DNA of 64,000 bases from Verrucomicrobiia bacterium (GTDB lineage Bacteria; Verrucomicrobiota; Verrucomicrobiia; Verrucomicrobiales; DEV007), in assembly GCA_030425385.1 (NCBI GenBank), contig JAUIAH010000001.1, positions 434,001 through 498,000 of the forward strand, read 5' to 3'. This document shows, piece after piece, positions 37,778 through 44,249 of this stretch (positions within the stretch are counted from its first letter, which is position 1; each line of letters begins with the position of its first letter). Below the pieces are notes generated by a model. The model was not told where the DNA came from. It worked only from the letters and a program-made list of their open reading frames with translations, and did no database searches. The position numbers and the translations under genes are program-made.

Positions 37778-39226
37778 GTGACCAACCGCGTCGGCTTCCA
37801 CCTCGATCAGCAGATCTCGCAATACCGTTACGAGAACAACGCCGACGCCCAACGCACCGCCCGTACCAGCAGGCAAGCAGGTCAAGAATGGACGGACCAC
37901 TTCACCTACGACCCCGACACCGGAGGCATCACCGCCAGCAACCCAGACACCAAAGAGCGAGAGCCCGAGGCCTACGCGTATGACAAAATAGGCAACCGCC
38001 TAGAAGCAACCCAAGGCACCAAAACCACCAAATACAAAGCCAACGCCCTCAACCAATACAGCTCCATCTTTCAGCCCTCATCTCAAATCTCTCACGCGCC
38101 AGCGCACGATGCTGACGGAAACCAAACCCACGAGGGCAACCGAACCTACTCCTGGGACGGAGAAAACCGCCTCATCGCCATCCAAGAAGGCAGCTCCCTC
38201 ATCGCACGATACACCTACGACCACCAAAGCCGCCGAATCGCCCGCTGGGTTAACGACGGCACCGAGGAGCGCTACCTCTACGACTGCTGGAACCTCATCG
38301 CCGTCTATCAAAAAGGCGAAACCAAACCAGTGGGAACCTACACCTGGGGCAAAGACCTCAGTGGAAGCCTACAAGGTGCCGGAGGCGTCGGCGGCCTTCT
38401 CTTCGCCCAAACCCAAGGCGAAAAGCCAAATACCTGGATCTACCACTACGACGCCAATGGCAACATCACCCAAGTCACGGATCCAAGAGGCAACCTCCTA
38501 GAACAAAACACCTACGACGCCTTCGGTAACCCTACCACAGAGTCTCATATTCCCAACCGCTACCGCTTCAGCACGAAACCACAGGATAGTGAATCGGGAT
38601 CCAACTACTACGGCTACAGATACTACAATCCAGTTTATGGTAGATGGCTTTCCAGAGATCCTATAAGTGAGTTTGGAGGAATTAATCTTAATATGTTTGT
38701 GAGAAATGAATCCCTGACTCTGGTAGATCGTCTTGGATTGAGGCATGTTGAATGCGTCTCTACAAATAGGAGATTTGCTGATGCGGATGAATGGAAAATT
38801 ATAAGTATGGATCCGGAAGTTGAAGATGCAGATGCGACCGTTTCTTGGGTGACTGGTGCAGAGGATGTTGAGTGGAGGGCGAACTTAAAGGTTGACTGCT
38901 TCTGTGCGTGCTTCAACTCTCTTGGCGGGCCGATGGTCGGCACATTCAGGGAGAAAAATATTGATGCTCGACGCTCATTTGAAGAGTCCAACCTTATTTT
39001 CGGCCTTACTGATCGTTTCGAGGTTCGCTCAACAGATCCCGCGGGAGCAATTGGAGATCTTGTCCACAGAGGAATTAAAGTTATTGATAAGTTGATCCCA
39101 GATGTCCCTCTGAATTTTAATTGGACCGATCTTGAGGTTGCAGTTTACAACTCGGGCACAAATCCATCTACAGTCGATGACGGAGAATGGGAAGGGGCTC
39201 ACCCTTGTGATCAGTTCGAGCAATAG
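37778..39226 (+). CDS. 5'-truncated RHS protein with variable C-terminal domain
   Basis: 482 residues from the GTG at 37778; the frame is open from 37664, immediately after the repeat array, so the N-terminus is lost. YD/RHS repeats are clear (FTYDPDTGGITAS, YDHQSRRIARW, YHYDANGNITQVTDPRGN) and end in the RHS core signature YYGYRYYNPVYGRWLSRDPI, EFGGINLNMFVRNES, then VDRLGL. The ~155 residues after VDRLGL are an unrecognised, lower-GC domain, the position where polymorphic toxins are encoded (CFCACFNSLGGPM, DLVHRGIKVIDKLIPDVPLN). No signal or secretion domain remains, so the locus may be a cassette left from a larger RHS gene. Confidence 0.75.
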   Translation: MTNRVGFHLDQQISQYRYENNADAQRTARTSRQAGQEWTDHFTYDPDTGGITASNPDTKEREPEAYAYDKIGNRLEATQGTKTTKYKANALNQYSSIFQPSSQISHAPAHDADGNQTHEGNRTYSWDGENRLIAIQEGSSLIARYTYDHQSRRIARWVNDGTEERYLYDCWNLIAVYQKGETKPVGTYTWGKDLSGSLQGAGGVGGLLFAQTQGEKPNTWIYHYDANGNITQVTDPRGNLLEQNTYDAFGNPTTESHIPNRYRFSTKPQDSESGSNYYGYRYYNPVYGRWLSRDPISEFGGINLNMFVRNESLTLVDRLGLRHVECVSTNRRFADADEWKIISMDPEVEDADATVSWVTGAEDVEWRANLKVDCFCACFNSLGGPMVGTFREKNIDARRSFEESNLIFGLTDRFEVRSTDPAGAIGDLVHRGIKVIDKLIPDVPLNFNWTDLEVAVYNSGTNPSTVDDGEWEGAHPCDQFEQ

Positions 39227-40327: not shown

Positions 40328-40753
40328 TTAAACGGGGTTGATGACCTTGACGTGAGGGAACCGGCTGAAATCCGTGTCGTTGCTATAAATGACGAGTCCG
40401 AAATCAGCCGCGAGAGCGGCGATGTGTGCATCTGTCGTCAGATTCCCACCGGTTGCTCCTGCGGTGAGCATGATTTTTAGATTGTCCCAATGGGTATTCG
40501 CAGGGCTGATCATCTCAACGTTTGGCTGGGCGAGCCAGCCATCGACGACGTTGAGCGCTTGCTCCAGTGTTAGTGGGGATCTGAATACTCTTGAGTGAGT
40601 GGAGAGGCGAATGAATCCAAGGATCACGACATGCCCGAGGCGAACGGGCCGAGTGCTGGACAGCACGCCATCCCACCATTCCTTGGCTGCAGCGTGCTGT
40701 GAGTAAGAAGTGAACGTCGCGTAGAGCAGAAGGTTGACGTCGGGACAGGTCAT
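40328..40753 (-). CDS. VapC-type PIN-domain toxin
   Basis: 141 residues. The PIN acidic triad is seen as DVNLLLYA at residues 5-12, a central region SPLTLEQALNVVDGWL, and TTDAHIAALAADFG with YSNDTDFSRFPHVKVINP at the end. VapC toxins are Mg2+-dependent RNases acting on tRNA or rRNA. The TACPDVN-like opening resembles the TA-system VapC group with DVNVLLY. Its ATG overlaps the antitoxin stop by 4 bp, the usual vapBC arrangement. Confidence 0.85.
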   Translation of the reverse strand: MTCPDVNLLLYATFTSYSQHAAAKEWWDGVLSSTRPVRLGHVVILGFIRLSTHSRVFRSPLTLEQALNVVDGWLAQPNVEMISPANTHWDNLKIMLTAGATGGNLTTDAHIAALAADFGLVIYSNDTDFSRFPHVKVINPV

Positions 40754-40998
40754 GGCCGATGCGCCTCAACCTCGAGTTCGTCCACAAGCTGGTTCATTCG
40801 TCTGGGATCGATGCCGGGCATGAGTTCCGAATCGAATACCGGCCCGGCGTAAGGTCGGGGCTTTGGTGCTTCTTTGGCCGTCTGCAAACCAAGACGCAAT
40901 AGTTGGTTGATCGCCTCTCGGAGGCTCATGTTCTTACGGCTTCGGTGAACCTCGATCGATTGGGCCAAATCGTCGTCAATGGAAAGCGTTGTTCTCAT
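40750..40998 (-). CDS. VapB-type ribbon-helix-helix antitoxin
   Basis: 82 residues from the ATG at 40998; the frame extends to 41031. The N-terminal MRTTLSIDDDLAQSIEVHRS and MSLREAINQLLRLGL form a ribbon-helix-helix DNA-binding unit, and the C-terminal Pro-rich tail (PRPYAGPVFDSELMPGIDPR) is the likely toxin-binding segment. It should neutralise the co-encoded VapC and repress its own promoter through the palindrome at 41010-41030. Confidence 0.85.
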   Translation of the reverse strand: MRTTLSIDDDLAQSIEVHRSRKNMSLREAINQLLRLGLQTAKEAPKPRPYAGPVFDSELMPGIDPRRMNQLVDELEVEAHRP

Positions 40999-41009
40999 GG
41001 CCCAAACTA

Positions 41010-41030
41010 TGACATCAACGCGTGATGTCA
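41010..41030. promoter_or_regulatory. VapB operator palindrome
   Basis: TGACATCA and TGATGTCA are perfect 8-bp inverted arms separated by ACGCG, 12-32 bp upstream of the antitoxin ATG. Position and symmetry fit a ribbon-helix-helix antitoxin operator. Inferred. Confidence 0.65.
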
Positions 41031-41209
41031 AGCGGCATCAAATCGTTCTATCGCAGCATCAAGGATCTTCGTATTGCCCTTCTCCTCAGCGATCCCGATC
41101 GGGCGCTTGCCACCGAATGTCACGGCCGTGTCTGCTCCGGCATTGATCTGCAGCCGACAGGCCCCGAATAGGAGAAGTGGTTCATTCAGCCGTGTCGGTG
41201 GTGTTGTTC
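41028..41209 (-). pseudogene. Ankyrin-repeat C-terminal scrap
   Basis: On the minus strand an open frame without a start codon reads LLLFGACRLQINAGADTAVT then KRPIGIAEEKGNTKILDAAI and stops at 41028-41030. This is the pattern of a terminal ankyrin repeat (NAGAD, P-I-x-I-A-x-x-x-G-N-x-x-I-x-x-x). No upstream ankyrin sequence is attached; it abuts the 41210 gene, so it is a remnant. Confidence 0.5.
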
Positions 41210-42196
41210 CTAATCGAAATCGCCTAGCACAGTGATACGCAGTGCTTCATCTGAGATCGTTTCCGCCCATTCTCGAGCGGTGTCTGGGTCTGCCTTTTGG
41301 GCTTGGCGAGCAAAGGCAGCTACGGCTTGATCGCGCCAAGGGGCATCGGAGTCCTGTTCGTTCAACCATTGCGCCGTGTGGTTGTAGTGGCTGCTGGCCC
41401 AACGATCAATGAAGCTCATGATGTTTTGAGAGACATCGTCTTCGGGACTGATCTTAATCAACCAATCGGCTAGAGCGGCACTATCTTCTTGAGTGCCTTC
41501 AAGCCGAGCATTGAGGATAAAGTTGAGCGCAACGGTCGAACGTTCCTCGGGATCGCTAGATTGTGAGGATCGTGCAACAAGTGTCTGCGCAGCTTCTGTT
41601 CGACCGGTCAGGGCGAGAGACGAAACCGTCGAACGGAGGCCTTCGAGGCGCAATTGGGAATCTGGTTCCCTCACAAGGGCCTCTGTAAAGCGAGTGAGTT
41701 CTGTGCTGTCCAAGAACTGGGCGACTCGGAAGAAGAGAGCGTCACTGGAGCCGTCGCCGTTCGCGCGACTTGCCTTCAAATGTGATAGAGCCTGCTCTGG
41801 ATGGTTGGCGGCGATGCCCGCTAGCAGGGCACCGAGAAAGTGGCCCGGTGTGAACTCCATTGCGCTGTTCGACTGGAGGTGTTGGCCGTCCTCCTCGAAC
41901 CACTTCAATGCGGCTGCCGGATCGTTCTTAGCCCAAGCGAACAACGAGCGCACGATCTCAGCGTGGTCGCCGCCCTGAAGTGCGGAAGCGATACCGCTTG
42001 CCTGCTCGGAATCTCGTAGCAGAGCTTCTGTTAGTGAATGGGGTTCACTAGCATCCTCCACCATGGACTCTGGTGCGGCCATCGCGATCAACTCCTGACT
42101 GGCAGTGATTTCATTTCGTAGTGCCCGATTCTTCGTCCAAAGCCATGCCGCGACGATGAGCAAGAACAGCAAGACAAGGGGAAACGCGCGAATCAT
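41210..42196 (-). CDS. Membrane-anchored protein with DPxxAxxW-type helical repeats
   Basis: 328 residues from the ATG at 42196; the frame extends to 42310 inside the upstream gene. One N-terminal membrane anchor (AFPLVLLFLLIVAAWLW) is followed by a coiled stretch and repeated helical pairs marked by NDPAAALKWFEEDG, NHPEQALSHLKAS and DPDTAREWAETI. The same repeat style occurs in the extracytoplasmic half of the upstream sigma-fusion protein, 4 bp away. Proteins of this type are numerous in Verrucomicrobiota but have no assigned function. A role as partner or sensor for the sigma-fusion protein is inferred. Confidence 0.65.
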   Translation of the reverse strand: MIRAFPLVLLFLLIVAAWLWTKNRALRNEITASQELIAMAAPESMVEDASEPHSLTEALLRDSEQASGIASALQGGDHAEIVRSLFAWAKNDPAAALKWFEEDGQHLQSNSAMEFTPGHFLGALLAGIAANHPEQALSHLKASRANGDGSSDALFFRVAQFLDSTELTRFTEALVREPDSQLRLEGLRSTVSSLALTGRTEAAQTLVARSSQSSDPEERSTVALNFILNARLEGTQEDSAALADWLIKISPEDDVSQNIMSFIDRWASSHYNHTAQWLNEQDSDAPWRDQAVAAFARQAQKADPDTAREWAETISDEALRITVLGDFD

Positions 42197-42200
42197 TCGT

Positions 42201-44045
42201 TTAACGAGTAAGGAGATCTTGGTTCTGTTCCTCCCAGGCCTGGGCACCGCGTTGATCAAAGATCCGCCACCGATCAACCACCTGCCGCAGTTCTTCAGTA
42301 GTCGATCCATCGCCGGGAAGCAGCGCCATGTTCTGTGCCATCCACTCGGCGATTTGCTGAGCTTGATTATGATCGCGAAGAGCTTCCTGGCTCAGCGCCC
42401 GCAACATGGTTTGCCCATGACTGCCACCACCGGGCAAGTTGTCGAGAAACTCCCAGGCTGCCGTGGGTGATTCGGTTTCGATCTGAGCGCGAGCGTGGAA
42501 AAGGATGGCGTGATTCTGAAGGGGGACATCGCTTTCTAACGCATTGATCAAAGCGGCTCGCTGGACAGGATCGTTGAGGGCGAAAGCAATCCGATAGAGA
42601 CCGCGTTCCGCGGATCTTGACGGGAGCTGCCGCAAATAATCGACCGCTGCGTTCATATCTGTCTGAGCGATTCCGGCCACGAGCGTTCCGAGTGCATCTT
42701 CTGCATTTCCGGATTCCCGCGAACCTTTGGGATCGAGTGCTCCGCTTTCGAGCCGATCTTGGTACCATGCCAGGGCTCCGTCAGGATCTTGTTTGCCAAA
42801 CTCTTCAAGCGCTGCCCCCAAGCGATAGAAGTCAATCCTCGGATCATCAAGAATGGCATCCGCGCACCCAGCGGGGTCACGGGCATCGGCGAACATCACG
42901 AGTGTGGTGCCAACTTCTTGCACCATCCGTTTGCTTCCACCAGCCGCTTCGAGCTCGTCAAGAGCAGCCCTAAGACTTTCACCAGTCAACTCTCGCTGTG
43001 AATCAAACTGCTTAAGCTTTTGCCAGAACAGCTGGCGCGCGGCGTTCCCACCAAACCGCGTCTTATCGAAGGCGTCGATGAGGTCTTCCCAATCGATCAA
43101 GCGATCCTGATCTGTCATCGCGAGTGTCGAAATGCCAGTGTTCACATTCGCGAGGATTGATCTTGGCGCTGGATTCTCTTTCGTGAGCTGCGCAAGCTTG
43201 GATTCGAGGCGCTCATGTTCGGTTCCCAGTGCCGAGTGCGTCTTCCACTGCCACCCGACGGTACCCAAAGCGATAAGAAGAGTCGCCCCTACGGTGATTG
43301 GTTTGATGTTAGCCATGGTAAACAGGGAATTGGTGATGATGGAGATCGTAGAAAGGCGGGGGGCTGCAACCAGCGCATGAGCGGCAACGGTTGCCGCCGC
43401 CGCAGCGGAAGGTTTGGACAGCTCAATGCCAAGGCCGACAGAGATCACGGCAACACGGAGTGAATGCCCACTGGTTTGCAGGACGGCAGCGAGTCGATCG
43501 AGTGCCCGCGATAGGTGCTTTCGGGCGGCATCTTCCGTCTGGTTCATGGTGGCAGCGATCTGTCGAAACTTTTGTTTCTGAAAGAAGCGTTTAAGAATCA
43601 CCTCGCGATCACTCGTTCGGAGTTTCTCTAGCGCTTCATCCAAGTGGGGCAGAGCTGCCTGCCAAGCTGCCTGATCGACATTAGAGAGATGGTTCACAGG
43701 CATGGCGCTCGTCACTTGAGATTCACTCGCGAAGGCATTTAGATGTCGTCGCCGTCGGTATTCAGACCGCAGTGCTTTCTTTGATTCCAGCCGAGTGGTT
43801 TGCATCAACCAGCCGCCGAGTCGTTTCTGTTTGGAGAGGCGATGCGCTTTTCGAGCTAGAACCGCAAAGGCATTCTGAGTCACCTCTTCTGCGAGTTCAG
43901 CGTTGCTGGTCGAGCGGCGGGCGACGCCATCAACAAGATCGAGGTAACGGGCAACGATTTGTTCGAAAGCGGTCTCATCGCCGTTGGTGGCATAACATTG
44001 AAGCAATTCCTGATCGCTCGGAGGGACTGGTGGGGCAGCTTTCAA
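42201..44045 (-). CDS. ECF sigma factor fused to membrane segment and repeat domain
   Basis: 614 residues. Residues 1-190 are an ECF sigma factor: region 2 DETAFEQIVARYLDLVDGVA, AELAEEVTQNAFAVLARKA, and region 4 LRTSDREVILKRFFQKQKFR, QIAATMNQTEDAARKHLSRA. After a hydrophobic Ala-rich stretch (SAAAAATVAAHALVA) comes a clear membrane segment (ITVGATLLIALGTVGW, ~residue 255). The remaining ~340 residues should be extracytoplasmic and contain repeats such as DPDGALAWYQDRLES and SPTAAWEFLDNLP. A tethered sigma factor would need release or cytoplasmic exposure to act. It is followed by the repeat-bearing 41210 gene after 4 bp. Confidence 0.85.
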   Translation of the reverse strand: MKAAPPVPPSDQELLQCYATNGDETAFEQIVARYLDLVDGVARRSTSNAELAEEVTQNAFAVLARKAHRLSKQKRLGGWLMQTTRLESKKALRSEYRRRRHLNAFASESQVTSAMPVNHLSNVDQAAWQAALPHLDEALEKLRTSDREVILKRFFQKQKFRQIAATMNQTEDAARKHLSRALDRLAAVLQTSGHSLRVAVISVGLGIELSKPSAAAAATVAAHALVAAPRLSTISIITNSLFTMANIKPITVGATLLIALGTVGWQWKTHSALGTEHERLESKLAQLTKENPAPRSILANVNTGISTLAMTDQDRLIDWEDLIDAFDKTRFGGNAARQLFWQKLKQFDSQRELTGESLRAALDELEAAGGSKRMVQEVGTTLVMFADARDPAGCADAILDDPRIDFYRLGAALEEFGKQDPDGALAWYQDRLESGALDPKGSRESGNAEDALGTLVAGIAQTDMNAAVDYLRQLPSRSAERGLYRIAFALNDPVQRAALINALESDVPLQNHAILFHARAQIETESPTAAWEFLDNLPGGGSHGQTMLRALSQEALRDHNQAQQIAEWMAQNMALLPGDGSTTEELRQVVDRWRIFDQRGAQAWEEQNQDLLTR

Positions 44046-44077: not shown

Positions 44078-44131
44078 AACCGGACAGATTTCTGTATGAT
44101 GAGGAAATATTTCTCCGGATTCTGTCCGGTT
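44078..44131. promoter_or_regulatory. 11-bp inverted repeat between sigma genes
   Basis: AACCGGACAGA (44078-44088) and TCTGTCCGGTT (44121-44131) are perfect inverted arms 32 nt apart, between the leftward sigma-fusion gene and the rightward truncated sigma gene. The symmetric placement suits divergent promoter elements or a regulator site. Both arms contain GGACAG, the core of the nearby repeats. Confidence 0.5.
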
Positions 44132-44159: not shown

Positions 44160-44249
44160 ATGAACGATGCCTGGTCAGAACTGAAAGCCTATGCCGAGCA
44201 CGGTGATCAAGCTGCCTTTGCCAAAGGGACAGGACGTCAATCGGAATAA
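44160..44249 (+). pseudogene. Sigma-factor gene truncated at codon 21
   Basis: An ATG at 44160 begins WSELKAYAEHGDQAAFA, the unmistakable opening of an ECF sigma factor (compare DETAFEQIVARY in the neighbour). At codon 22 the sequence runs into a GGGACAGG repeat unit and ends in a stop at 44247-44249 after nine unrelated residues. No sigma sequence resumes beyond the repeat/RHS block before ppk2. I read it as a sigma gene cut off by repeat insertion with loss of the remainder. Confidence 0.6.

Follow-up and report, generated by a model that had tools for sequence, protein, structure and literature searches.

In the usual description, a sigma factor is a soluble protein held by a separate anti-sigma factor. 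How, then, could a sigma factor work when it is built into a membrane protein, and what would the membrane protein encoded directly behind it contribute? The question is raised by two minus-strand genes in a 64,000-nucleotide stretch of a Verrucomicrobiia bacterium of the DEV007 lineage (assembly GCA_030425385.1, contig JAUIAH010000001.1, positions 434,001 to 498,000; hereafter the window, whose own numbering is used). The first gene encodes an extracytoplasmic function (ECF) sigma factor joined to a linker, a membrane helix and a helical C-terminal domain, and the second a sigma-less protein with an anchor of its own. This domain order and gene arrangement recur in dozens of relatives, and a common repeat superfamily links the C-terminal domains with the partner proteins. 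The unit may be a tethered latent sigma receptor with a sigma-less partner, the sigma factor being freed by proteolysis and the unit multiplied in this Verrucomicrobiota lineage; the chances of this reading, which draws on sequence and on analogy, are put at about even. The features concerned are the following.

42201–44045, minus strand: fusion gene (ECF sigma factor, linker, membrane helix, helical C-terminal domain), 614 codons, TTG start
43755–43955, minus strand: sigma region 2, residues 31–97 (Sigma70_r2, PF04542, 2.4e-9)
43491–43643, minus strand: sigma region 4, residues 135–185 (r4_2, PF08281, 3e-8)
43317–43484, minus strand: conserved linker, residues 188–243, from an alignment of 21 fusions and column conservation over 49 fusions
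43314–43316, minus strand: ATG of Met244, which opens the membrane helix; candidate internal translation start
43239–43301, minus strand: membrane helix, residues 249–269 in the AlphaFold model (low confidence there), placed also by hydropathy of the window copy and the family
42411–43046, minus strand: alpha-solenoid section of the domain presumed to be extracytoplasmic, residues 334–545 (AlphaFold, single sequence)
41210–42196, minus strand: partner gene without a sigma domain, 328 codons, N-terminal anchor and helical repeats
42131–42196, minus strand: N-terminal membrane anchor of the partner, residues 1–22 (Kyte-Doolittle 2.43 over residues 1–19; model helix 5–39)
41225–42037, minus strand: alpha-solenoid of the partner, residues 54–324 (AlphaFold, single sequence)

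The fusion runs from 44045 to a stop codon at 42201–42203, and the partner ATG follows four bases on, at 42194–42196, just as an earlier reading made from the letters alone (the sequence-only reading) had placed them. Upstream of the TTG start the frame stays open for 43 codons more, in which there is no ATG, GTG or TTG. The protein scores 65.3 bits against the TIGR02937 profile of ECF sigma factors (cut-off 42.9), with sigma2 and sigma4 both present and both Pfam matches above their cut-offs. Its score for TIGR02989, the Rhodopirellula/Verrucomicrobium sigma subfamily, is 52.1 bits and lies below the cut-off of 124.55. The sigma and C-terminal parts of the gene have similar GC by codon position, and dozens of relatives share the build; the intact frame is therefore taken as genuine and a frameshift artefact is rejected.

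Between sigma4 and the membrane helix lies a linker of ~55 residues with the family consensus xLxxRGVxxSxAALAxxL...AxPxxL in the alignment of 21 fusions. The ~345 residues behind the helix have no Pfam or NCBIfam match above cut-off, and the AlphaFold model gives them an alpha-solenoid in part only (334–545). Blocks of this model reach a predicted local distance difference test (pLDDT) score of 58–88 over residues 331–540 and 52 in the last block. With a whole-model mean of 51.9 it is poor, and for that reason it was left out of the structure searches. The partner model is a helical solenoid behind an N-terminal helix, with a mean pLDDT of 75.1 over the whole protein. The partner likewise has no Pfam or NCBIfam family above cut-off, and a Foldseek search of the PDB with its model gave nothing at E 0.001 or better. 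VIA-align returned generic helical-repeat matches alone, the best of them, a chain of a designed protein crystal, at a Z of 10.8, below the caution level for repeats of ~13; no fold family is therefore claimed.

The two proteins had been credited with the same DPxxAxxW-like repeats, which is right in kind. The strict motif occurs once in the C-terminal part of the fusion and twice in the partner, and the two sequences do not detect each other with phmmer at E 0.01. Their kinship is visible through relatives: a single fused protein (L057, G003:C615) matches both.

The build is not confined to the window. Its genome holds at least 71 Sigma70_r4_2 matches (150 of 205 candidates scored), of which 27 sit in open frames of at least 372 amino acids. 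All 27 frames were fetched, on 25 loci plus the window, and 23 are clean fusions. Four frames were omitted: L038, which has many membrane helices; L055, whose build is unclear; L056, which matches no sigma profile; and L049, with its sigma part broken across two frames. L049 was nonetheless kept among the 28 sigma-partner distance pairs and in the phmmer link set described below. With 12 fusions from near relatives (11 loci) and 14 from far ones (13 loci), the survey comprises 49 fusions and describes a large paralogous family. The near and far fusions were taken from the better matches and are hence not a random sample, all 49 sequences are mutually related, and gene starts were assigned mechanically by script. 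Searched with the fusion protein, 35 of 38 genomes hold relatives, own genome included, many of the weak matches elsewhere being sigma-only. Searches of relatives scored only the best 33–34 candidates per genome; among the best 34 scored, the matches number 33 in G000, 34 in G003, 33 in G011 and 25 in G026.

After the sigma part (residues 186–363), the Kyte-Doolittle hydrophobicity reaches 1.4 in 47 and 1.6 in 43 of the 49 fusions, and exactly one segment of at least 1.6 follows in 40. For a profile of linker and membrane helix (A1), own and near sequences served as input. Among 145 genomes of the phylum, own included, it detects 8 further ones, and only these 8 are independent evidence; seven belong to a single family within the same class, and the eighth lies outside that class. 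In the own genome, where the best 33 of 67 candidates were scored, it recovers 10 of the 23 fusions plus 2 sigma-less genes, and short ECF frames account for none of these 12 matches. Seven proteins of the fused kind scanned with Pfam gave nothing beyond the sigma part above cut-off. A contig search with the fusion yielded one sigma-level match (25% identity), in a metagenome-assembled genome of Fimbriimonadales. The Verru_Chthon cassette protein TIGR02598, typical of the Verrucomicrobiota, scores 100.1 bits in the window's genome (cut-off 51.4) and is found in none of 14 control genomes, in keeping with an origin in that phylum. As the fused membrane-held sigma factor occurs in 23 clean copies in this genome, and 19 of these have a co-directional gene close by, it appears to be a main expanded signalling format here.

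Three loci depart from the common build. L095 (G132:C1:90000-95500), a distant relative, carries a tandem pair of sigma-membrane fusions 126 bp apart. At L049 (G000:C73:8500-17000) the sigma part of a family fusion lies in two frames with an intervening stop, either a sequencing error or a decaying copy. At L038 (G000:C55:234000-242500), about six hydrophobic segments come after the ECF sigma frame where the family has one, which makes it a polytopic fusion of another build.

A co-directional gene follows the fusion within 100 bp in 37 of 49 cases, with a 4-bp overlap in 13. These neighbours were compared with the genes behind short ECFs, for which 20 loci were fetched, 18 with a sigma frame and 16 with a gene within 100 bp; these controls are all from the own genome, the fusions from several. 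The first membrane helix begins by residue 40 in 32 of 37 fusion neighbours (own genome 18 of 19), as against 2 of the 16 control genes. The median helix start is 7 in the 33 neighbours that have a helix and 78.5 in the 12 such controls (Mann-Whitney p 3e-6), the latter being the usual layout of an anti-sigma factor with a cytoplasmic domain. Because its helix comes early, unlike in the genes behind short ECFs, the fused-ECF neighbour is not a conventional anti-sigma factor, and a canonical one is rejected on anatomy. The co-encoding of a membrane partner, noted in the window by the sequence-only reading together with the joining of sigma factor, helix and further domain, is thus found family-wide. 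Two short ECFs of the own genome (L116 and L119) are followed by mutually related anti-sigma-like genes of very large size (727 and 935 amino acids).

In phmmer comparisons, 39 of the 49 C-terminal domains and 27 of the 37 partners are linked into one repeat superfamily (E 0.01 per query, uncorrected across ~100 queries), which none of the 16 genes behind short ECFs joins. Among these controls, the gene on L121 and a gene on L036 are one and the same, which is the only link that the former has. Behind the partner, a co-directional frame comes first and within 100 bp in 12 of 38 listed units (mechanical frames), so longer operons are possible; in the window the next such frame is 456 bases distant.

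Tethered ECFs, C-terminal extensions and an expansion of ECFs in Planctomycetes-Verrucomicrobia-Chlamydiae (PVC) lineages are each already known separately. IutY of Pseudomonas putida (ECF243) is a sigma/anti-sigma hybrid of 374 residues, from which cuts by Prc and RseP release a sigma fragment of ~23 kDa, and it works in cell-surface signalling with the receptor IutA (PMC5411451). Like the fusion, it places an ECF sigma factor, one membrane helix and a further domain (periplasmic in IutY) in a single chain; the fusion differs in its 614 residues, its helical solenoid and its anchored sigma-less neighbour. In ECF52 (SCO4117 of Streptomyces coelicolor), too, a sigma factor is joined to a membrane region and an extracytoplasmic domain, the latter only presumed in the fusion, and proteolytic release has been proposed (PMC5826349; PMC8999054). 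The group carries a zinc finger, a proline-rich stretch and a carbohydrate-binding domain and is described there from Actinobacteria only (PMC5826349). In Tuwongella immobilis, some ECFs were recovered in Triton or SDS fractions (PMC8567305). ECF57 sigma factors have WD40-like repeats in some members and two conserved cysteines linking sigma2 and sigma4, and ECF42 a TPR extension and a YCII-domain neighbour (PMC8999054). With ECF57 and the planctomycete WD40 ECFs the fusion shares many paralogues, long C-terminal extensions and the PVC lineage, and it differs in having helical repeats and a single cysteine (C17) in residues 1–192. With ECF42 it shares a helical-repeat extension and differs by its membrane helix.

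The periplasmic domain of IutY is of the FecR type. Among the Pfam matches of the fusion to E 1, a limit to be read with care as HMMER drops most matches above E 0.1, there is no FecR, no zinc finger of the ECF52 type between sigma part and helix nor any other ECF52 domain, no WD40 family and no TPR. The fusion thus lacks the tested hallmarks of the ECF57, ECF52, IutY-type and ECF42 groups. A solenoid receptor, a neighbour that is usually sigma-less and anchored, and a large paralogous expansion make it a variant of the membrane-tethered ECF sigma factor. The sequence-only reading went further and saw a logic unlike that of sigma/anti-sigma pairs. That is only partly right: sigma and anti-sigma factor are fused in IutY itself and presumably in ECF52, and in the fusion, too, the conserved linker could be a built-in anti-sigma segment, or linker and helix together a fused anti-sigma factor. 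Searches of an open-access library turned up neither this combination nor any work on membrane-fused ECFs in the Verrucomicrobiota or on internal starts within genes of the kind, a result that cannot prove novelty.

A tethered transcription protein with an anchored partner has its own precedents outside the sigma factors. ToxR and ToxS are a tethered activator and its co-encoded anchored guard; TcpP and ToxR are activators of another fold and not sigma factors. The proteolysis of TcpP is controlled by the single-pass TcpH (PMC11323476), and both pairs, as described, are likened here to the proposed unit.

In the proposed scheme, the first protein would be a single-pass receptor with its ECF sigma factor in the cytoplasm, followed by the conserved linker and one membrane helix, and its helical-repeat sensor would stand outside the cell membrane. 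The solenoid should lie outside because the sigma factor must act inside and there is only one membrane helix. The second protein, encoded directly downstream, would add a sigma-less member, separately anchored and bearing repeats of the same type. The sigma factor would be latent as long as it is tethered, and its release is modelled on IutY, the nearest precedent established by experiment. A ligand bound by the solenoid, or loss of the partner, would expose the receptor to a site-1 cut; a site-2 cut of the RseP/M50 type would follow, and the freed sigma factor would bind RNA polymerase. The partner may bind the receptor by way of its helix, juxtamembrane coil and solenoid and so control access of the protease, and by analogy with the pairs above it is inferred to be a co-sensor or guard. 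Behind the helix, heptad periodicity exceeds that of shuffles in fusions (z 3.85, n=49, some of these stretches still being membrane helix owing to mis-centring, which detracts from the result) and in partners (z 3.1, n=32), with no excess in a control stretch (z -0.2, n=45); its presence in both proteins suggests that they pair. If true, this understudied phylum would have a class of transmembrane signalling that is almost invisible to domain databases.

A number of results weigh against this scheme. No gene lies within 100 bp of 12 of the 49 fusions, although for at least L032 and one L095 frame the analysed stretch ended there. Ten of the 37 partners have no link to the repeat superfamily, and by eye two of these resemble other proteins, that of L047 being lipoprotein-like and that of L054 like a secreted redox protein. 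Distances among sigma parts and partners correlate at 0.39 over 28 pairs (permutation p 2e-4); by group the value is 0.93 in near relatives (8 pairs) and 0.08 in both own (13) and far ones (7), so that co-inheritance is uneven. The hydrophobic stretch of the window copy (~residues 245–267) is weak, its best 19-residue Kyte-Doolittle mean being 1.46, and the model helix there, at a pLDDT of ~40, carries little weight. Lysine and arginine beside the helix, summed over 37 sequences in some of which it is mis-centred, number 44 on the sigma side and 60 on the other, so this positive-inside test does not support a sigma-inside topology. Site-2 protease candidates are present in the genome; M50 proteases also occur in all 14 control genomes and therefore say little. 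Cleavage and membrane location are both inferred. For the C-terminal part, called extracytoplasmic by the sequence-only reading, the domain is there and its outside position is one that the charges do not favour; for the hydrophobic stretch, weakness in the window contrasts with the 43 of 49 relatives at 1.6 or above.

Three other explanations of the unit were considered. The tethered sigma factor might act unreleased, a rearrangement of receptor and partner upon a signal freeing the sigma domain at the membrane and recruiting RNA polymerase there. Membrane-bound activators of the ToxR/CadC kind work without release, the fusion has no known cleavage site, its ~55-residue linker keeps sigma4 apart from the helix, and the co-encoded anchored partner resembles ToxS. 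However, IutY, the closest worked-out sigma factor of such a build, requires Prc and RseP, and sigma factors usually leave RNA polymerase after initiation, a poor fit with tethering; action without release is considered unlikely. A still smaller chance is given to a cytoplasmic C-terminal domain, in which the hydrophobic stretch would merely touch the membrane and the solenoid would be a protein-binding regulator like the extensions of ECF42 (TPR) or ECF57 (WD40). The weak window helix and the flanking charges speak for it, and protein binding is common among helical-repeat scaffolds; against it stand the clearly hydrophobic segment at the same place in most relatives, the strong N-terminal anchor of the partner and the missing TPR and WD40 matches.

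Very improbable is a conventional pair, with the partner as anti-sigma factor and the fused part incidental. The gene directly behind a sigma gene is where an anti-sigma gene would be expected, but the window's partner has no stretch ahead of its helix (residues 1–22), unlike most genes behind short ECFs, and its sole match to an anti-sigma family is at E 0.044, with 13.8 of 100 bits. The tethered receptor with a proteolytically freed sigma factor remains the preferred reading.

A further question within this receptor reading is posed by the ATG at the membrane helix, which looks like a start of translation. An ATG falls in the 16-residue zone at the helix start in 39 of the 49 fusions, against Met in 27% of random zones. 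In 29 of these 39 cases S, N, K, T or A comes next; this holds for 158 of 550 other internal Mets (p 2e-8) and for 28 of 44 ATG starts of downstream genes. The mRNA is also little folded there: a 39-nt window at the ATG averages -3.5 kcal/mol, compared with about -7 to -12 from 12 codons outwards on either side, and downstream-gene starts have a mean of -5.0 (n=57). Relative to synonymous-codon shuffles the mean z is about +0.8, and at Met244 of the window copy the values are -1.1 kcal/mol and z 1.29. With the same centring, the effect is absent at 69 control membrane helices, drawn from 167 mechanical frames of which not all were checked as genes (mean z -0.11 vs +0.64 for the 49 fusions, p 7e-6). 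It is retained in a subset of 30 fusions with less than 50% nucleotide identity around the ATG (z 0.70, p 4e-4).

It is possible, though doubtful, that one frame yields two proteins, the full tethered sigma factor and, through internal initiation at Met244, a sigma-less anchored sensor. If so, translation would set the ratio of sigma-bearing to sigma-less subunits and the second gene would contribute a further sigma-less subunit, giving a receptor array with the transcription factor on only some members; a real signature would amount to translational control of receptor composition. Several points oppose an internal start. The enrichment of Met in the zone is milder when set against other membrane helices of the same loci (39 of 49 compared with 36 of 69, p 0.003) than against random zones, and a strict alignment column at the helix start holds Met in only 25 of 49 fusions. 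The folding z at the ATG is weakest in the own genome (0.49, n=14; near 0.99, n=12; far 0.92, n=13), and the 10 fusions without the ATG have some central rise too (z 0.60). A Shine-Dalgarno match of at least 4 precedes 6 of the 39 helix-start ATGs, fewer than the 138 of 550 at other internal Mets; as downstream-gene starts are not enriched either (8 of 37), this test does not discriminate here.

The alternative to an internal start, which leaves the receptor reading itself untouched, is that the ATG is a scar: sigma-linker genes would repeatedly have captured free-standing sensor genes, and the junction would look like a former start that is no longer used. Such capture is given about even chances and is at least as likely as a second, sigma-less product. 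Free-standing relatives do exist in the genome. L123 (318 amino acids, own genome) begins by eye at a Met equivalent to Met244, with TTACC-ATG as in the window, and its open frame is just 6 codons longer than the protein; its helix region matches the linker-helix profile. Its outer domain is of a different kind, as expected if outer parts were exchanged. The second relative, L124, keeps the linker end and the repeats and has no sigma match in its 4-kb stretch. The C-terminal domains of the fusions are diverse, and downstream of the ATG the folding signal (z 0.72) stands out more clearly than in the upstream half, where it is not significant (z 0.40, p 0.056), a further point against an internal start. 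On the other side, sigma and C-terminal distances are correlated (r 0.43) and the linker is common to distant families, which suggests that these parts have long been inherited together, and in that time an unused start should have eroded.

The surroundings of the unit in the window hold further features. An inverted repeat, ccggacag...ctgtccgg, lies at 44080–44129, ~35–84 bases above the fusion start, and is a candidate operator, terminator or insertion scar. At 44160–44230 on the plus strand, running divergently from the fusion gene, ~22 ATG-initiated residues (MNDAWSELKAYAEHGDQAAFAK...) resemble by eye the N-terminus of another ECF sigma factor, and this stretch is interrupted by a short repeat, gggacaggac...tcggaat. 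On the other side of the unit, at 40328–41031 on the minus strand, a PIN-domain protein (PF01850, 1.1e-7) is encoded together with an upstream gene of 93 amino acids. This gene overlaps it by 4 bp and reads like a ribbon-helix-helix antitoxin with no Pfam match, the two being likely a VapBC-type pair. An RHS-repeat protein of 482 amino acids (PF05593, 6e-13) is encoded at 37778–39226 on the plus strand.

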